DNA of 64,000 nt from Saccharopolyspora sp. NFXS83. Lineage in GTDB: Bacteria; Actinomycetota; Actinomycetes; Mycobacteriales; Pseudonocardiaceae. Shown here in pieces: positions 40,010 through 49,865 of the stretch (the first letter of the stretch is position 1; the number at the start of each line of letters is the position of its first letter). The stretch lies in the NCBI RefSeq assembly GCF_026241095.1, contig NZ_JAPFGB010000033.1:1-64000 (forward strand), given 5' to 3'. The translations under genes and the position numbers were made by a program. The notes under the pieces were generated by a model. The model saw only the letters and a program-made list of their open reading frames with translations. It did not search any database and had not been told where the DNA came from.

Positions 40010-40315
40010 ATGGAGCGGATCGGGGTCAGGGAGCTGCGGCAGAACGCCAGCCGCTACCTCAAGCGGGTGGCGACCGGCGAGTCGATCTTGGTGACGGACC
40101 GCGGCCGGACCGTCGCGGTCCTCAACCCGCCAACGCGCGCGCATTCGCTCTACGACGAATTGATCGCCGCCGGGGAACTGATCCCCGGTGACGGCGGCGA
40201 CCTCCCGGAACCGGGTGACCCGGAGGCCGGCGAGTTCGACGCGCGGTTCCCGGACGAACCGGGGCCGCGCACGACGCCGCCGGGCGACGACCGACGTGAA
40301 CAGGAGCGGCTTTGA
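40010..40315 (+). CDS. vapB: Phd/YefM-type antitoxin VapB
   Basis: A 101-residue antitoxin. The N-terminal Phd/YefM fold ([17 protein letters not shown], then [13 protein letters not shown]) should bind DNA as a dimer; the acidic Pro/Glu-rich C-terminus (60-101) should wrap the toxin. The stop overlaps the toxin start (TTGA), so the two are coupled. A palindrome lies directly upstream. In Mycobacterium tuberculosis a vapBC pair (VapBC23) occupies the same place between the PBP gene and map. Confidence 0.9.
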
Positions 40316-40704
40316 TCTACTTCGATTCCTCCGCGCTGGTGAAGCTGATCGCCCCAGAACCGGAGAGCAAAGCGCTCAGCGAATGGGTGCAGGCCCGGCT
40401 GGAGCAGCCCCGCATCACCAGCGCCGTCTCGCAGGTCGACGTGCTGCGCACGTTCCGCGAGTTCGGCCCGGCGATCGAGGACCTGGCCTCGATCATCCTG
40501 TCGAAGCTGGACCGGTTGCCGGTGAAGCAGGACGTGCTGGACACCGCGGCGGGGCTGCGTTCCCGGGTGAGCCCGCTGGAGGCGATCCACCTCGCGTCCG
40601 CGTGCAAGATCCGCGAGGGGTTGCACGCCTACGTCTCCTACGACAAGGCGCTGCTGGCCGCGGCGGAGGAGGAAGGGCTCGCCACGGCCTCGCCCGGTGC
40701 CTGA
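40312..40704 (+). CDS. vapC: PIN-domain ribonuclease toxin VapC
   Basis: A 130-residue PIN-domain toxin, a metal-dependent RNase that typically cleaves tRNA or rRNA. Predicted acidic site: D5 (FDSSALV), then D43 where most family members have Glu, E90 (PLEAIHLA) where most have Asp, and D111 (YDKAL). The two swaps keep the charge, so activity is plausible. The start is TTG 40312, overlapping the antitoxin stop, with CAGGAG upstream. Confidence 0.9.
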
Positions 40705-44228: not shown

Positions 44229-45575
44229 ATGTCTCCTGAGTCGCACACCCAGCCCCCGATCGATCGAGTTCCCACCGACCGTGTGACCGACCAGGATGCC
44301 AGGTCAGCGGCTTCGGCCGCGTCCGGCACCCGGGCCGACGAATCCTCCGCGCTGGCCAGAGCCGAAGTCCTCGTGAACGAAGGCGCCGCGGAGACGATGG
44401 CGCCGTCCCGCTCGCGCGCGTTGGCAGGCGGCGGACTGCTGCTGGCGGGCGTCGCGCTGGCCGCCGCGAACATGCGCCCCGCCGTCACCAGCCTCGCCTC
44501 GATCCTCGGCGAGGTGCGCGATTCGCTCGGTGCGACCAGCACCTGGGCCAGCATCGTGACCTCGGTGCCGACCCTGTGCTTCGGCGTCGCGGGCATCGGT
44601 GCGCCGCTGCTGGCCCGCCGGTGGGGGATGAACCGCGTCGTCGGCGGCTCGCTCGCGCTGCTCACCGCCGCGATGATCGCCCGCGTTCTCGGGGGCCCGT
44701 GGGCGCTGCTGGCGGGCACGGTGCTGGTGTGCGCGGCGATCGCCATGTGCAACGTGCTGATCCCGGTGGTGGTGAAGGAGTCCTTCCCCGGCCGCGTCGG
44801 CCTGGCCACCGGCCTCTACACGACGGCGATGGCCGCCGGTGGCGCCACCGGTTCGGCGATCACGCCGTGGCTGAACTCGGCGACCGGGAACTGGCGGTGG
44901 TCGCTGGCGACGTGGACGGTCGTCGCGCTGGCCGCGTTGTGCGTCTGGATTCCCGGCACCCGCAAGCGGCCCACCACCAAGGCCGTCACCGAGGTCAAGG
45001 GTGAGCGGCGATCGCTGATGCGCAACCCGTTGGCCTGGCTGATCACGTTCTACTTCGCGATGCAGTCGACCATCGCCTACGTGGTGATGGGCTGGCTGCC
45101 GGAGGTGTTCAAGGGCGCGGGCATGGACGCCACCTCGGCCGGAGCCCTGCTGGGCGTGCTGCTGTTGATCGGCGTGCCGATCAACATGGTGTTGCCGCCG
45201 CTGGTGACGCGGACCCGAGGCCAGTCCGGTTGGGCGTTGCTGATGGGCACGCTCATGTTCGCCGGCTTGCTGGGGCTGCTGCTCGCGCCGCTGGCTGCGC
45301 CGATGCTGTGGGCGGTGCTGATGGGCATCGGCATGAGCGCGTTCCCGCTGGCGCTGGTGATGATCTCGCTGCGCACCCGCAACGCTGCTGACACCGGGCA
45401 GCTCTCGGCGATGGCGCAGAGCATCGGCTACCTGATCGCCGCGTCGGGGCCGTTCCTGTTCGGGATGCTGCACGACGTGACGGCGACCTGGTCGGTGTCG
45501 CTGATCGCGGCGCTGGTCATCGTCGTCGCGCAGACGATCGTCGGCATGCTCGCCGGACGCCCCCGCGTGATCTGA
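44229..45575 (+). CDS. MFS transporter, CynX/NimT family
   Basis: A major-facilitator transporter of about 448 residues with 12 hydrophobic segments after a 60-residue soluble N-terminus. Its first helix contains ANMRPAVTSLASIL, which is typical of the cyanate/nitroimidazole (CynX/NimT) branch. The substrate is not predictable. The ATG at 44229 fits the -10 box better than the GTG at 44223. It is divergent from a GntR repressor. A palindromic repeat follows its stop after 13 bases. Confidence 0.88.
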   Translation: MSPESHTQPPIDRVPTDRVTDQDARSAASAASGTRADESSALARAEVLVNEGAAETMAPSRSRALAGGGLLLAGVALAAANMRPAVTSLASILGEVRDSLGATSTWASIVTSVPTLCFGVAGIGAPLLARRWGMNRVVGGSLALLTAAMIARVLGGPWALLAGTVLVCAAIAMCNVLIPVVVKESFPGRVGLATGLYTTAMAAGGATGSAITPWLNSATGNWRWSLATWTVVALAALCVWIPGTRKRPTTKAVTEVKGERRSLMRNPLAWLITFYFAMQSTIAYVVMGWLPEVFKGAGMDATSAGALLGVLLLIGVPINMVLPPLVTRTRGQSGWALLMGTLMFAGLLGLLLAPLAAPMLWAVLMGIGMSAFPLALVMISLRTRNAADTGQLSAMAQSIGYLIAASGPFLFGMLHDVTATWSVSLIAALVIVVAQTIVGMLAGRPRVI

Positions 45576-45588
45576 GCGGAGCTCGCCG

Positions 45589-45637
45589 AGTGAACGGCCC
45601 GTTCGTCCAATCCCGTTGGGCGAACGGGCCGTTCACT
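45589..45637. repeat. 47-nt palindromic repeat, copy 1
   Basis: Arms GTGAACGGCCCGTTCG and CGAACGGGCCGTTCAC are exact complements; the inner CCAA/TTGG pairs too, giving a stem of about 21 bp on a 5-nt TCCCG loop. It begins 14 bases after the MFS stop. Confidence 0.85.
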
Positions 45638-45664
45638 TCACTCGGGGAGTGCGCCGCAGCCGGA

Positions 45665-45711
45665 GTGAACGGACCGCTCGTCCGACCGCGTTGGGTGAAC
45701 GGGCCGTTCAT
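45665..45711. repeat. 47-nt palindromic repeat, copy 2 (degenerate)
   Basis: Same unit as the previous copy, with two mismatches and four G-U pairs in the 21-bp stem and a CCGCG loop. It starts 28 bases after copy 1. Confidence 0.75.
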
Positions 45712-45735
45712 CCCGGCAGGGGCTCGGTGAGAGTG

Positions 45736-45786
45736 GAGTGAGCGGACCGTTCGTCCAATCCCGTTGGGCGAAGGGTCCGTTCACTC
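45736..45786. repeat. 47-nt palindromic repeat, copy 3
   Basis: Stem of 23 bp with one G-G mismatch and two G-U pairs, loop TCCCG. It carries A/T where copy 1 has C/G at the ninth stem position. It ends 31 bases before the stop of the convergent TetR gene. Confidence 0.85.
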
Positions 45787-45816
45787 ATGTCGGACGGGCC
45801 GCTGGGCGGCGGGTGA

Positions 45817-46431
45817 TCATGGCTGCTGGGGAGCCGTTTCGAGGATGCGGTGGATCGCGCGGTGCGCGCGGTCGACTGCCTGGGGATCGTGGTCGAGTTG
45901 CAAGGCTTGGTTCAGGGCCAGGCCGACCGCGATGATCTCGAACACGGCCTGGTCGACGTCGACGTGCGCGGGCAGTTCGCCGTTGGTCGCCGCCGCGGAG
46001 AGCTCGTCGCGCAGCCGGCCGCGCCACCACGACCACCGTTCGGCGACGGCGTCGCGCACCAGGCCGGGGCGGCCGTCGAACTCGCTCGACGCCGCGGTGA
46101 GCAGGCAGCCGCCGGGCAGTTCCAGGGTGGCCAGGAAGCTCACCGAGTTCTCGCAGAGCGCGCGCAGCCGCGGCATGCCCTGCCGGTGCTGCTCGGCGGC
46201 CTCGACGACGCGCCGCCAGAAGTCCGCGAAGGCGTCGTCCAGCGTCGAGGCCTGCAGCGCTTCCTTGGTGCCGAAGTGCCCGAGCACGCCGGATTTGCTC
46301 ATCTCCAGCTCGCCCGCCAGGCGGCCGATGGTGACGCCTTCGAGTCCTTCCGCGGAGGCGATCTCGGTGGCGCGGTGGATGATCCTCGCTCGGGTGGCGC
46401 GGGCTTCCGCCGCGGAGCGTCGAGGTGACAT
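45817..46431 (-). CDS. TetR-family regulator
   Basis: A 204-residue repressor with the N-terminal TetR helix-turn-helix (TIGRLAGELEMSKSGVLGHFG, about 34-54) and a helical C-terminal ligand domain rich in Trp and Leu (TetR_C_6-like). It is divergent from the metallo-hydrolase gene, and large inverted repeats overlap the promoter between them, so it probably represses that gene and itself. The ligand is unknown. Confidence 0.9.
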   Translation of the reverse strand: MSPRRSAAEARATRARIIHRATEIASAEGLEGVTIGRLAGELEMSKSGVLGHFGTKEALQASTLDDAFADFWRRVVEAAEQHRQGMPRLRALCENSVSFLATLELPGGCLLTAASSEFDGRPGLVRDAVAERWSWWRGRLRDELSAAATNGELPAHVDVDQAVFEIIAVGLALNQALQLDHDPQAVDRAHRAIHRILETAPQQP

Positions 46432-46439
46432 GGCCGCAG

Positions 46440-46490
46440 TTTAGCGTCCGACCGTGCGCTATTGACTTGGCGAACGATCGGACGCTAAAT
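46440..46490 (+). promoter_or_regulatory. TetR operators overlapping a strong promoter
   Basis: TTTAGCGTCCGA (46440-46451) and TCGGACGCTAAA (46478-46489) are exact inverted repeats; the similarity extends to 18 of 21 bases per arm. Between and within them lies TTGACT (46462-46467), 17 bases, then CTAAAT (46485-46490), a near-consensus promoter for the downstream gene. Confidence 0.8.
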
Positions 46491-46527
46491 TTTGCCCGGT
46501 CAACCGGAGAACCGAGGAGGACGCGCT

Positions 46528-47310
46528 ATGCGCATCCGGCGTTTGGCCTGGGCAGGGCTGGAGATCGAAGCCGAGGGAGCGACCGTGGTGGTGGACCTGG
46601 TCCAGCACCCCAACGAGCTGTTCGGTCTCCGCGATCCGCAGGCGGAGCTGCCTGCTCCCTCCGCCGGAGCGGTCGACGCCGCGCTGGTGACGCACCTGCA
46701 CGTCGATCACACGGGCGTTCCGGCTCTGGCGCGGGCGCTGCGCCCCGGCGCGCCGGTGTTCCGTCCCGCGCCCTTCGCGGACGTGCTCACCGAGGGGGTC
46801 GAGCGGGAGCTGAGCGCGAGCGGCCTGGCCACCGAGGTCGTCGCCGAGTGGGAGCGGCGGGAGGTCGGCCCGTTCCGGATCACCGCCGTGCCCGCCGTAG
46901 ACGGTTTGGGATCACCGCAGGTGAGCTGGGTCGTGGAGGCGGATGGCAGCCGGATCCTGCACGCCGGGGACACCTTGTTCCACGGTGCCTGGTGGTCCAT
47001 CGCCGCGCGCTGCGGGCCGTTCGACGCGGTGTTCCTGCCGATCAACGGGGCGGTGGTCGACGCTCCCGCTCTGCAGCCGCCGAGCCCGTTCCCGGCGGCG
47101 ATGGGGCCGGAGCAGGCGGCGGTCGCGGCGCGGATCCTCGGCGCCCGCGCGGCGGTGCCGATCCACCACGACGACGAGCACCTGATCAAGCCGCCGGGTT
47201 ACGTGGAAGTCGACGGCCCGGTGGCCGAATTCCGGATCCACGCGGGAGGAATCGCGCACGTCCTGGACGTGGGGGAGTGGCGGGACTTCACGGGCGAACT
47301 CGCCGCGTGA
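46528..47310 (+). CDS. Metallo-beta-lactamase-fold hydrolase
   Basis: A 260-residue hydrolase with the binuclear site HLHVDH (H56, H58, D60, H61), then HAGDTLF and IHHDDEH near the C-terminus. It resembles the UlaG/YtnP-like MBL branch rather than true beta-lactamases; the substrate is unknown. ATG 46528 has GAGGAGG at 46514-46520. Control by the divergent TetR gene is likely. A partial copy of the palindromic repeat touches its stop codon. Confidence 0.9.
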   Translation: MRIRRLAWAGLEIEAEGATVVVDLVQHPNELFGLRDPQAELPAPSAGAVDAALVTHLHVDHTGVPALARALRPGAPVFRPAPFADVLTEGVERELSASGLATEVVAEWERREVGPFRITAVPAVDGLGSPQVSWVVEADGSRILHAGDTLFHGAWWSIAARCGPFDAVFLPINGAVVDAPALQPPSPFPAAMGPEQAAVAARILGARAAVPIHHDDEHLIKPPGYVEVDGPVAEFRIHAGGIAHVLDVGEWRDFTGELAA

Positions 47311-47313
47311 GCT

Positions 47314-47340
47314 TCCCCGTTGGGCGAACGGTCCGTTCGC
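47314..47340. repeat. Palindromic repeat, partial copy 4 (right half)
   Basis: Only the loop and the right arm (47320-47340, TTGGGCGAACGGTCCGTTCG plus one base) are recognisable, five bases after the metallo-hydrolase stop. The stop itself, in GTGAGC, may come from a truncated left arm. Confidence 0.6.
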
Positions 47341-47357
47341 CCTGCGGCGCTGTCGGG

Positions 47358-47404
47358 GTGAACGGCCCGATCGTCCAATCCCCTTGGTCGAACAGTCCGT
47401 TCAC
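47358..47404. repeat. 47-nt palindromic repeat, copy 5
   Basis: Left arm 47358-47378, loop TCCCC, right arm 47384-47404, with four mismatches. First of three copies spaced about 15 bases apart. Confidence 0.75.
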
Positions 47405-47419
47405 TCGGTTGCAGGTCGG

Positions 47420-47466
47420 GTGAACGGACCGTTTGTCCAACGGGGTTGGGCGAACAGTCCGTTGAC
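47420..47466. repeat. 47-nt palindromic repeat, copy 6
   Basis: Left arm 47420-47440, loop CGGGG, right arm 47446-47466; two mismatches and two G-U pairs. Confidence 0.78.
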
Positions 47467-47482
47467 TCGGTTCGGGTTGTGG

Positions 47483-47529
47483 GTGAGCGGGCCGTTTGTC
47501 CAATGGGGTTGGGGGAACGGGCCGTTGGC
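47483..47529. repeat. 47-nt palindromic repeat, copy 7
   Basis: Left arm 47483-47503, loop TGGGG, right arm 47509-47529. It ends 20 bases before the stop of the convergent cation-efflux gene. Confidence 0.75.
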
Positions 47530-47549
47530 TTGGCGGGTCTTGGGGTGGT

Positions 47550-48206
47550 TCAGCAGCAGTGGTGGCCTCGCCAGGCCTCGCGGCCTTCCTTGGCGGCGAC
47601 GGCGGCGATCACGAGGGCGGCCAGCGGGTCCGCCCAGTACCAGCTGAAGAGCGTGTTGAGCAGCAAGCCGGCCAGCAGCACTCCGGACAGGTAGGTGCAC
47701 AGCAGCGTCTGCTTCGAGTCGGCCACCGCTGAGGCCGACCCGAGTTCGCGCCCCGCCCGGCGCTGCGCGTAGGACAGGCCGGGCATCACCGCGAGGCTCA
47801 ACGCGGCCAGCACCAGGCCCACCGTCGAATGATCCGCCTCGGCGCCATCGAGCAGGCTCCGCACCGACTCCACCGAGACGTAGGCCGCCAGCGCGAAGAA
47901 CGATACGGCGATGATCCGCAACGTGACGCGTTCCCGAGCTTCCGGATCGCGGGCGCTGAACTGCCAGGCGACCGCGGCGGCCGAGGTGACCTCGATCGCG
48001 GAGTCGAGCCCGAATCCGATCAGCGCCACCGACGACGCCACCTTGCCCGCCGTCAACGCGATGACGGCTTCGATGACGTTGTAGGTGATCGTCGCTGCGA
48101 CCAGCCACCGCACCCGCCGTCGCAGGGCAGCCCGTCGAGCCTCGGTCGGCTCCGGAGCCGAGCAGCTCCCGCGGCAGGCTTGATCGCGGTCCGCCTCAGC
48201 GCTCAC
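47550..48206 (-). CDS. Cation-efflux (CDF-like) protein
   Basis: A 218-residue membrane protein with about six hydrophobic segments and the CDF-like motifs GFGLDSAIE and ADSKQTLLCTYLSG, each with an Asp in a membrane helix that would bind metal. The usual C-terminal cytoplasmic domain is absent; instead the protein ends HHCC. C11 and C15 lie in the short N-terminus. It overlaps the CmtR-like regulator by 11 bases, so the cargo is probably Cd or Pb, or Zn. GTG 48206. Confidence 0.85.
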   Translation of the reverse strand: MSAEADRDQACRGSCSAPEPTEARRAALRRRVRWLVAATITYNVIEAVIALTAGKVASSVALIGFGLDSAIEVTSAAAVAWQFSARDPEARERVTLRIIAVSFFALAAYVSVESVRSLLDGAEADHSTVGLVLAALSLAVMPGLSYAQRRAGRELGSASAVADSKQTLLCTYLSGVLLAGLLLNTLFSWYWADPLAALVIAAVAAKEGREAWRGHHCC

Positions 48207-48543
48207 CTGCCACCTCCGAGAGGGGCGCGTCGTTCAAGCACGGCTGCGACTGCTGCACCGCCAGCACGACCTGCACCAGTTCTCCCAGTGCCGCCGACAA
48301 GTGCGGGTCGGCGAGTTCGTACCGGGTCTGCCGACCTTCGAAGGTCGCTACGACGAGGCCGCACCCGCGCAGGCAACTCAGGTGGTTGGACACGTTCGAC
48401 CTGGACAACCCGAGATCGGCCGCCAGCTTCCCGGGATAACCGGGCCCGTCCAGCAGCGCCACCAGCAACCGGCATCTAGTGGGGTCGGCCAGGGCTTTTC
48501 CCACGCGGGCCAGCGCCGCTTTCTTCGCCTCACATGTCAGCAC
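48196..48543 (-). CDS. cmtR: CmtR-type Cd/Pb-sensing ArsR/SmtB repressor
   Basis: A 115-residue metal sensor very close to Mycobacterium tuberculosis CmtR, which is induced by Cd(II) and Pb(II). The three metal-binding cysteines of that protein are at identical positions: C57 and C61 (SCLRGCG) and C102 (QPC). The winged helix is RSNVSNHLSCLRGC. C4 and C24 are also conserved. In M. tuberculosis CmtR sits near a P-type ATPase gene; here the partner is a cation-efflux protein. GTG 48543 lies inside a large palindrome. Confidence 0.93.
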   Translation of the reverse strand: MLTCEAKKAALARVGKALADPTRCRLLVALLDGPGYPGKLAADLGLSRSNVSNHLSCLRGCGLVVATFEGRQTRYELADPHLSAALGELVQVVLAVQQSQPCLNDAPLSEVAGER

Positions 48544-48570
48544 ACGCTGAACAGTACAGCCTGCGCTGAC
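48536..48570 (-). promoter_or_regulatory. Candidate CmtR operator
   Basis: Two 17-bp arms around a single central base match at 14 of 17 positions; the outer six (GTCAGC with GCTGAC) are exact. The palindrome covers the GTG start of cmtR, so binding would also block translation or leaderless transcription. Confidence 0.6.
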
Positions 48571-48581
48571 CAGTTGGCGGG

Positions 48582-48628
48582 GTGAACGGACCGTTCGTCC
48601 AAGCGGATTGGACGAACGGTCCGTTCAC
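48582..48628. repeat. 47-nt palindromic repeat, copy 8 (perfect)
   Basis: A perfect 21-bp stem (48582-48602 with 48608-48628) on a GCGGA loop. At the ninth stem position it has A-T where copy 1 has C-G. It directly abuts the stop codon of the gene at 48629. Confidence 0.9.
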
Positions 48629-48847
48629 TCAGTTCGGCGCCGGGGAGCCGAGGAGCTCCGCGTTGGCTCGGCCGACTGCGCTGGTGAGTTCGGCGAAAGC
48701 CTTTTCGGTGAAGTTCAGGGTCAGGCCGTCGCCGCTGCCTCGGAAGTCCAGCTGGACGGACCGGTCCGGTTCGGTCTCGAAGGTGATCCTGACCTGCTCG
48801 GACAGGCACACGTAGGTGTCGTTCTCGACCGCTCGCTGCTCGCGCAT
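48629..48847 (-). CDS. Small acidic protein, unknown
   Basis: A 72-residue protein that I do not recognise. It is soluble and acidic, with alternating beta-like residues in the middle (VRITFETEPDRSVQLDFRG) and a helical end (TEKAFAELTSAVGRAN). ATG 48847 has AGGAGGAG just upstream, which supports it being real. It is divergent from the XRE-DUF397 pair and ends in the perfect palindromic repeat. A link with the XRE system is possible but unproven. Confidence 0.65.
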   Translation of the reverse strand: MREQRAVENDTYVCLSEQVRITFETEPDRSVQLDFRGSGDGLTLNFTEKAFAELTSAVGRANAELLGSPAPN

Positions 48848-49001
48848 CCGGTCTCCTCCTGATCTGCGGTGTCTCGGTACAGTTCACGAAAGATCTTCAT
48901 TTAAGCCGCATAGTTAGGCTTGTGGGAGAAATAGACCACAGGTTGTGGTTCACTGTCGGTCCCCTGATCAGGTAGCCATCGGTTCAGCCGGAGGAGATTT
49001 C

Positions 49002-49865
49002 GTGCCCACAGGCCGCCAAACCGTCGAGCGCCGTCAGCTGGGGCTCACGCTCCGCCGACTCCGGCGTGAAGCAGGACTGTCGCAGCAAGAGGCGGCTCGC
49101 GCGATCAACCGGCACTACACCCGCATCAGCCATCTCGAATCGGCGAAGGCCTCGCTGAGCATCGAGGAGCTCGGGTTGCTGCTCGACCGCTACGCGGTGT
49201 CCGACGCGGATCGGGAAACCGTGCTCGCGTTGGGCGCGGTGGCTCGGAAACGACAGCGCGGGAAGGGATACACCGATCAGCTGCCCAAGTCGTTCGAGCG
49301 GCTGGCCGACCTGCAAGCAGATGCCGCCGCGATCGGCTTTTACGACACCGGAATCGTTCCGGGTCTCGCACAGTCGCAGGACTACGTGGTCGCGTTGATG
49401 CGCGTAGGGGACGGAATCTGGTGGGAGCCCTCCGAAGCGGAGATCGAGCGTCGGATCGAGTTCCGGCTTCAGCAGCAGCGGCGGGTGTTAGAGGCAGAGG
49501 AACCGAAGCAGATCGACTTCGTGCTGACCGAATCGGCGCTGGAAGAAACGGTCGGGAGCACGGCGATCATGCGCGGCCAGCTCCTCCACCTGCTCCAGCT
49601 GGGTGAACGTCCGTCGGTGACCGTTCGGGTTCTGAGTCGGGCGACCACCTCCAAGTTCCTCCTCGGAGGTGGTCTCATCACGTTGGACTTCGCCGGGAAC
49701 GCGCCTCGCATCGCTTGCGCCACTTCCCACGGTCCCTGTACTTACCACGATCAAGAGGTGGAAACTGCGCCCATGTTCCGGGCATGGGAGTGCGTTCGAC
49801 AGCTTGCCCTTGATCCGGAACCGGCTCGTGACTTGCTCATCGAGAAGCTGAAGGATCTGAAGTGA
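49002..49865 (+). CDS. XRE-family regulator with DUF5753 domain
   Basis: A 287-residue protein with an N-terminal XRE helix-turn-helix (LRREAGLSQQEAARAINRHY, about 19-38) and a C-terminal DUF5753 ligand domain (FYDTGIVPGLAQS onward). This is the Scr1-like architecture, expanded in filamentous actinobacteria and almost always next to a DUF397 gene. GTG 49002 has GGAGGAG at 48990-48996, deciding the start over a longer frame. Its stop overlaps the DUF397 start by one base. Confidence 0.92.
   Translation: MPTGRQTVERRQLGLTLRRLRREAGLSQQEAARAINRHYTRISHLESAKASLSIEELGLLLDRYAVSDADRETVLALGAVARKRQRGKGYTDQLPKSFERLADLQADAAAIGFYDTGIVPGLAQSQDYVVALMRVGDGIWWEPSEAEIERRIEFRLQQQRRVLEAEEPKQIDFVLTESALEETVGSTAIMRGQLLHLLQLGERPSVTVRVLSRATTSKFLLGGGLITLDFAGNAPRIACATSHGPCTYHDQEVETAPMFRAWECVRQLALDPEPARDLLIEKLKDLK

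Follow-up and report, generated by a model that had tools for sequence, protein, structure and literature searches.

BIMEs of E. coli are mosaic arrays of REP elements that have been reported to bind gyrase or IHF. The attC sites of integrons are palindromes at gene 3' ends, in which the letters vary while pairing is kept. Like BIMEs, the repeats described here form palindrome arrays in the non-coding stretches that follow genes, but their sequence differs and neighbouring units are spaced on an 11-bp ladder. They share with attC the position at gene 3' ends, the variable letters and the kept pairing, but they lie beside convergent as well as tandem genes and show by eye no attC core-site consensus. 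REP elements form two superfamilies, GTAG and CGTC, the latter with 4-5 nt loops and without a dedicated transposase, and the same source mentions untagged REP-like families of M. tuberculosis (PMC3733652). Untagged actinobacterial REP-like repeats as such are therefore known, although the main text of PMC3733652 nowhere uses the words Actinobacteria, Saccharopolyspora, Rhodococcus or Mycobacterium. REP elements as presented there are also short, palindromic, extragenic and present in many copies, but they have stems of 5-13 bp plus a tag. The units described here have 21-nt arms and are symmetric, with paired GTG/CAC ends and no unpaired GTAG or CGTC tag. Repeats of this kind are known. Their fixed geometry and spacing ladder, in contrast, are not in any paper found in the open PMC literature. 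No paper there was recognised as describing these repeats, which is no proof of absence.

The window, the 64-kb stretch of DNA analysed as a whole, contains the seven complete 47-nt palindromes and the single half copy that the sequence-only reading had reported at 45.59-48.63 kb (Table 1). When up to 3 mismatches were allowed, the arms matched at 15 places in the window, all within this region (0 expected from 100 shuffles), in agreement with the confinement noted before. The reported 21-nt arms and constant loop length are also borne out, with a gap of 5 nt in 7/7 units. Arm pairing comprises 21/21 positions in the unit at 48582 and 20 in the unit at 45590, while the other five contain at least 3 mismatches. 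The predicted hairpin energies of the seven units range from -19.6 to -41.6 kcal/mol (folding z-scores -2.62 to -9.41), and the conserved palindrome extends slightly past 47 nt. Genes were called as open reading frames by our own codon-usage scorer, not taken from an annotation. By these calls the full units lie outside genes as had been claimed, but the half copy, had it kept its left arm, would reach into the end of the gene at 46528-47310. No Rfam family matched at its gathering score; 10 matches fell below the gathering scores, mostly to miRNA models.

Table 1. Palindromic units and neighbouring genes in the 64-kb window.
Feature	Position	Strand	Context
Unit 1, full palindrome, array A	45590..45636	.	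between convergent MFS and TetR genes
Unit 2, full palindrome, array A	45665..45711	.	
Unit 3, full palindrome, array A	45738..45784	.	
Half copy (right arm), array B	47320..47340	.	past the stop at 47310 of the 46528-47310 gene
Unit 4, full palindrome, array B	47358..47404	.	between convergent metallo-hydrolase and cation-efflux genes
Unit 5, full palindrome, array B	47420..47466	.	
Unit 6, full palindrome, array B	47483..47529	.	
Unit 7, perfect 21-bp arms	48582..48628	.	directly adjoins the 3' end of ORF 48629-48847
MFS transporter gene	44283..45575	+	3' end towards array A
TetR-family regulator gene	45817..46431	-	3' end towards array A
Metallo-beta-lactamase-fold hydrolase gene	46528..47310	+	3' end towards array B
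Cation-efflux gene	47550..48206	-	3' end towards array B

The host, a Saccharopolyspora, is described as a soil actinobacterium. Exact 15-nt half sites occur 224 times in its genome and 0 times in the reversed control, and 661,287 bp sampled around hits contain 169 full copies (0 in the control; one of 170 candidates, with 11 mismatches, was dropped at the cut-off of 8). A purely local duplication, which the earlier reading had considered, is thus contradicted by units throughout the host genome and in its relatives. None of the 169 copies lies within a called gene, and most adjoin gene 3' ends, often between convergent genes. Leaving aside 12 of the 169 copies at locus edges, 72 occupied gaps have two called neighbours, of which 32 are convergent, 30 tandem and 10 divergent, compared with 69, 214 and 95 among all gaps of at least 47 nt. 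The arrays in tandem gaps are closer to the 3' end of the upstream gene in 26/30 cases. Because the host, G001 and G003 stretches and 6/10 of those from G005 were chosen around known hits, the share of gaps with units is overestimated there; some G018 stretches were also placed at known hits. Genome G020 was sampled regardless of hits, although 20 of its 25 stretches were added because the first 5 contained units: 498,380 bp hold 31 units, with 23 between convergent genes, 7 between tandem genes and 1 inside a gene. Units lie at a median of 18.5 nt from the gene 3' end in G020, and of 18 nt in the named stretches. An exclusion from the replication terminus, hinted at by an incomplete list of G018 matches, was rejected in view of copies at 1.95 and 2.25 Mb.

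Repeats of the same build are present in other Pseudonocardiaceae and some Rhodococcus. Two inverted RTGAA-N7-TTC-N6 (or close) arms of 21 nt, each with the GAA-N7-TTC boxes, flank a 5-nt gap; S. spinosa also has units of this build. The arm letters are lineage-specific and altered on both sides: arm pairing across genera is 94.9%, with 110 double-changed cells compared with 40.4 in shuffles. The gap is 5 nt in 28/30 strict G020 units in a search that permitted gaps of 1-15, and in 112/113 host and 24/26 G018 units from stretches picked with 5-nt patterns. Several subfamilies, grouped by eye, coexist in the single G020 genome, and the geometry is fixed across them. G018 contains 239 pattern matches per strand. 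An exact form of the pattern is restricted to 5/298 genomes of the order, host included, and the exact Saccharopolyspora unit has 0 matches in genome_contigs, a set in which near relatives were possibly left out. A de novo search of 100 kb each in G021 and G017 did not find the build. A viral origin was considered and rejected, as the exact pattern has 0 matches in viral contigs.

Neighbouring copies in Saccharopolyspora and in a second genus with other arm letters lie approximately 63-64 + 11n bp apart, forming a helical ladder. The period was first noticed in the host genome, and phase 64 was set after G018 had been seen; G018, the source of phase and period (V 0.879, n=15), is therefore itself no test of the ladder. 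Its spacers are 17 (seven times), 18, 21, 28 (three times), 39, 61 and 94. In a V test with period 11 and phase 64, restricted to spacings of 48-150 and compared with a null of uniform jitter by 5.5, the host gave V 0.380 (n=91, 0/20000), G001 0.331 (n=101, 0/20000; deduplicated 0.303, 1/20000) and G003 0.404 (n=35, 3/20000), the arrays of these three genomes being of shared ancestry. Five spacings from other loci (64, 107, 64, 65 and 75) gave V 0.937 (2/20000), and G005 contributes 2 spacings only (63 and 65; 1011/20000), a number too small for the test. With V of 0.3-0.4 the Saccharopolyspora ladder is blurred. Off-ladder pairs occur at 71 (the sole G020 pair), 78 (an A. chiangmaiensis genome) and 68 (G018), and G001 has two spacings of 30, outside the range of the test. 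These pairs notwithstanding, spacing is periodic at about one turn of DNA, as in a phased protein-binding array. Spacing that tracks the turns of the double helix suggests a protein that reads the units. The ladder, the placement between convergent genes and the family-wide build go beyond the initial reading.

With a chance that we put slightly short of even, the repeats of Pseudonocardiaceae and some Rhodococcus form a REP-like superfamily of gene-end palindromes of 47 nt, which a putative lineage-specific multimeric protein reads as double-stranded DNA and which probably act as a two-way boundary or termination element. Adjacent units would be set on one helix face. Bound at 3' ends, chiefly between convergent genes, the protein might stop or insulate transcription from both sides, as a road-block or a supercoiling boundary; this step is less certain than the recognition of the unit. 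The copies would have spread in the host genome by a non-RAYT route, and the arrays would then expand mainly by head-to-tail duplication. Several results count against this reading: the blurred ladder of Saccharopolyspora, the off-ladder pairs, spacer changes between orthologous arrays that are not multiples of 11, the 10/72 divergent host gaps, the few genomes with an exact form of the pattern, the lack of overall arm covariation in the host and the slightly larger phase deviation of its more similar pairs. A more far-reaching version is possible but doubtful, in which an undescribed nucleoprotein system of the Pseudonocardiaceae, a putative lineage-evolving multimer, reads the 47-bp double dyad (GAA-N7-TTC, 5-bp gap, inverted copy) and assembles along arrays on one helix face, so that convergent genes are separated by two-way boundaries of transcription or supercoiling.

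The palindromes could instead act as RNA hairpins in the transcripts of both flanking genes, as bidirectional factor-independent terminators, which we regard as a tentative alternative of rather low probability. The strong hairpins of the seven window units and the short distance to gene 3' ends would fit, and clusters of hairpins have been described as terminators (PMC8355165). The G020 units, often in the middle of the gap between convergent genes, are placed exactly as a two-way terminator hairpin would be, which counts against a protein-read element. The 12 nt around the stem end contain 3.6 T, compared with 2.3 for 36 other gene-end hairpins here, but only 1/30 tandem arrays is followed by at least 5 T in 10 nt, and a separate terminator-like hairpin stands between the gene and the array in some gaps. 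Nor do the copies show a sense-strand preference for G-U over A-C (74 and 57 in the host, p 0.16; 92 and 76 in G001, p 0.25). In the copy closest to the gene 3' end, G-U and A-C number 23 and 23 in the host and 7 and 32 in G001, the opposite of what a terminator predicts, with an unexplained A-C excess in G001. The arms of one copy do not covary overall in the host (3095 paired cells, shuffled mean 3100.4), the sole exception being a weak signal at pair 9/39 (122 compared with 111.5 shuffled, 5/500). The loops of 71 tandem copies, oriented by transcription, are pyrimidine-rich in 31 and purine-rich in 40; none of these three tests supports selection at the RNA level. The specialised terminator proposed from the sequence is conceivable, the units forming stable hairpins just behind genes, but lacks RNA-level support. 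Intrinsic terminators between convergent genes resemble the units as hairpins, but the units lack a T run behind the stem as well as an RNA-level signature and have a fixed 47-nt geometry, and an RNA hairpin needs no exact 5-nt gap, 21-nt arms or 11-bp ladder.

It is unlikely, in our estimate, that the units are a mobile or formerly mobile REP-like repeat that serves no host function and is tolerated behind genes as harmless. Dispersal in many copies requires a copying route, and several subfamilies in one genome, decayed copies and mostly head-to-tail neighbours (75 direct, 11 inverted, 5 ties) agree with such a repeat. Copy number also differs in 16 of the 30 orthologous gaps that are filled in both the host and G001. 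These 30 gaps, in a sample chosen around hits, are nevertheless 30 of 32 occupied ones; the other 2 are filled in G001 only, one of them keeping a decayed unit in the host (by eye). With regard to a MITE of an insertion sequence, no clean empty site was seen in the host-G001 orthologous gaps. Neutral repeats would not be expected to form a ladder or to keep one geometry across the G020 subfamilies. The REP-like label given earlier holds broadly for short, palindromic, extragenic, many-copy repeats near gene 3' ends, but its RAYT link fails in the host: the suggested transposase flanked by the unit was sought with PF01797 (Y1_Tnp) only, in the host and 40 relatives, and the host has no match, so the association was rejected for this genome. 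G001-G003, G009 and G018 also have 0 matches. Y1_Tnp occurs in 7/41 genomes, among them the unit carriers G004, G005, G010 and G012. Scanning around 4/13 matches, which are other than those of G004, G010, G012 and the second of G005, revealed one unit, in G005, beside an IS200/IS605-type tnpA/tnpB pair (by eye). The ladder might also be an imprint of array making, left by a machinery of duplication or insertion that measures in steps of 11 bp rather than by selection on a bound protein; we hold this to be quite improbable. The sharpest ladder is in G018, whose neighbouring copies look alike by eye, and the nine spacer changes of at least 5 nt between orthologous arrays (-18, -10, -9, -5, 8, 12, 20, 26 and 28) are out of phase, not multiples of 11. 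Against such an imprint, and against a neutral repeat, similar (young) pairs are not clearly better phased than old ones: the mean phase cosine is 0.346 in young and 0.540 in old pairs of the host, and 0.399 and 0.359 in G001. In the host, deviation from the phase even rises slightly with the similarity of the pair (rho 0.25, p 0.015; G001 rho 0.08, p 0.45).

If the ladder reflects a bound protein, one unnamed chromosome-organising or termination factor would be common to many gene ends of actinomycetes in industrial use, S. spinosa among them, and array spacing would give experimental access to the helical repeat of DNA in vivo. If the units are a mere repeat, they would still constitute a superfamily of REP-like elements that belongs to neither of the tag classes of PMC3733652, and would still mark many sites at which related genomes differ, with copies at 16/42 breakpoints. 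Copies are also found at or near some contig ends of the host assembly.

The 47-nt palindromes that the sequence-only reading had claimed are present: seven complete units plus a single half copy lie between 45590 and 48628, and they are indeed the only ones in the window; all 15 arm matches with up to 3 mismatches lie inside the repeat stretch, while 100 shuffles of the window yielded 0. Each unit is built of two inverted 21-nt arms with 5 nt between them, and a smaller dyad, GAACGG-N-CCGTTC, is present inside each arm. A separate inverted repeat, located where the TetR and metallo-hydrolase genes diverge, is perhaps a candidate TetR operator.

Repeat units and neighbouring features (window positions unless another stretch, L-number, is named)
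Feature	Position	Context	Basis
Array A (three units)		between facing 3' ends of MFS transporter and TetR regulator genes	ORF calls
Array B (half copy and three units)		between facing 3' ends of metallo-hydrolase and cation-efflux genes	ORF calls
Unit 1	45590		
Unit 7		adjoins 3' end of small ORF	ORF calls
Inverted repeat TTAGCGTCCGACCG...CGATCGGACGCTAA	46441-46488	present in G001 too (L149 5971)	
1.1-kb module	47485-48580	cation-efflux and ArsR-type genes, located between units 6 and 7	
Repeat region including four genes	45580-48646		
Larger segment	45578-50107		
72-aa ORF and divergent HTH_31/DUF5753 regulator	48629-49865	ORF without Pfam match; presumably a common small-protein pair of actinobacteria	
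Two short overlapping ORFs	40010-40704	resemble antitoxin and PIN-type toxin pair	by eye
Separate hairpins (examples)	L083 6303, L071 6580	between gene and array	
IS200/IS605-type tnpA/tnpB element	L230 1333-2400	directly behind a unit in G005	by eye

The covariance-model search that the earlier reading had proposed finds the units genome-wide and across the genus. With a model of the seven copies, 150 of 150 scored candidates match in the own genome (6.9 Mb in 70 contigs; both strands counted), and the scored candidates all match (132) in each of the five other Saccharopolyspora genomes searched. The exact half site GTGAACGGNCCGTTC occurs 109 + 115 times in the own genome and its reversed pattern 0 times. 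A sample of 661,287 bp, consisting of 40 stretches chosen around hits and the window, holds 169 copies with up to 8 mismatches, and its reversed sequence holds none. Contig C18 of this assembly starts in a unit and C43 ends in one; the ends of C22 and C36 lie no more than about 0.3 kb from units, and the arrays may be a cause of the assembly breaks.

The location outside genes noted in the window extends to the sampled stretches of the genome, with 0 of 169 copies inside a called ORF. Gaps with units and two called neighbours (72) are convergent in 32 cases, tandem in 30 and divergent in 10; all gaps of at least 47 nt comprise 69, 214 and 95, respectively. Where the gap is tandem, most arrays (26 of 30) lie nearer to the upstream gene's 3' end than to the next start (median 26 nt vs 127.5 nt). 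Gaps with units in G018, a genome of another genus, are convergent (13), tandem (4) or at an edge (1). In the compared genome G020, whose stretches were placed independently of hits, 23 of 31 units are convergent, 7 tandem, 1 inside and 0 divergent; the convergent ones, frequently mid-gap, occupy 22 gaps in a sample holding 53 convergent gaps of at least 47 nt. Of the 79 matches listed in 79 named stretches, 35 lie between convergent and 28 between tandem genes, 4 in divergent gaps, 5 at an edge and 7 inside genes, and some of these 7 may be gene-call errors.

Assignment to a REP-like superfamily is well supported. A degenerate pattern matched at least 79 stretches, and the matches listed all come from Saccharopolyspora, Halosaccharopolyspora, Halopolyspora, Pseudonocardia, Actinomycetospora, Actinophytocola, Lentzea, Allokutzneria, Rhodococcus and one Pseudonocardiales MAG. 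We compared 27 units (those of the window, 23 from degenerate-pattern stretches and 3 that the model detected): pairing holds in 94.9% of cells, and both-sided changes, which fall at pattern-free letters or in units found without the pattern, affect 110 cells vs 40.4 in shuffles. Units of G020 and G024 keep the frame RTGAA-N7-TTC-N6, 5 nt and the inverse, while the other letters differ; at least five subfamilies, grouped by eye, coexist in G020. The gap is exactly 5 nt in 28 of 30 G020 units (strict boxes, gaps of 1-15 allowed), and in 112 of 113 own and 24 of 26 G018 units, whose stretches were found with 5-nt patterns. The exact pattern form, which is blind to variants like the G018 letters, is patchily distributed: counting the own genome, 5 of the 298 genomes in the order carry it, and among 396 in the phylum the own genome is the single carrier. 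At the orthologous place of unit 1, the palindrome of G002 (L102) shares the build but not the letters (GTGAATGCCTC...), as though a different subfamily had taken over.

Neighbouring own copies start 61 to 141 nt apart, apart from two longer outliers (271 and 561), and this spacing is periodic (best period 11.5, R 0.448, n=91; 0 of 2000 jittered sets as high). G001, which shares array ancestry with the own genome, has a period of 11.0 (R 0.41, n=103). In G018, where the arms read GAACGGCACTTTC, all but two of the spacers (17 x7, 18, 21, 28 x3, 39, 61 and 94 nt) follow 17 + 11n. When the period (11) and the phase (64) are set from G018, the ladder statistic V is 0.380 in the own genome (null 0/20000), 0.331 in G001 (0/20000; 1/20000 after deduplication) and 0.404 in G003 (3/20000). 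Five further stretches, from Pseudonocardia, Saccharopolyspora and Actinomycetospora, give spacings of 64, 107, 64, 65 and 75; one pair in G020 (71) and one in A. chiangmaiensis (78) do not fit the ladder. The joint fit for own and G001 is 62.8 + 11.2n. Facing arm dyads of neighbouring units would thus lie about 33, 44, 55 ... bp apart, or whole DNA turns of about 11 bp, which is close to the expectation for underwound cellular DNA.

The exact geometry and the ladder lead us to prefer a mechanism, proposed from sequence, in which a putative protein would read the units as double-stranded DNA. The strongest rival is a two-way terminator. The stem end itself is T-rich, but T runs downstream are missing (seen in 1 of 30 arrays), and in several gaps a separate hairpin sits between gene and array. 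RNA hairpins on a single-stranded linker would have no reason for ladder spacing. A transcript hairpin also predicts more G-U than A-C on the sense strand, and no such excess was found in the own genome (74/57, p 0.16) or G001 (92/76, p 0.25); the unit nearest the 3' end gives 23/23 and 7/32, respectively. The arms change jointly across lineages but show no overall covariation within copies of the own genome (3095 paired cells, shuffled mean 3100.4), as if both arms answered to the same reader, although the missing covariation could also mean that the copies are young.

Among 127 orthologous gaps, 95 are empty in both own and G001, 30 occupied in both and 2 in G001 only; copy number is unequal in 16 of the 30. 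Units at matching places have a likeness of 0.892 (37 pairs) vs 0.828 for permuted pairs (0/2000), and spacers diverge most, with 0.69 identical aligned columns compared to 0.90 for units and 0.88 for copy-free gaps. Neighbouring units are mostly head to tail (own: 75 direct, 11 inverted, 5 ties; G001: 87, 11 and 3), which suggests that duplication is the main way in which arrays grow. Structural differences of at least 250 bp have 42 breakpoints, of which 16 are no more than 40 nt from a unit, several of these being mere array-size changes; positions this close to a unit account for 3.2% of all bases and 18.9% of the intergenic ones. G001 and G002 lack the 1.1-kb module and their sequence joins at a unit, G003 has about 210 bp instead of the entire repeat region, and the larger segment is missing from G004 and G005. 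It is possible that IS200/IS605-type elements, one of which was recognised by eye in G005, use the units as insertion targets.
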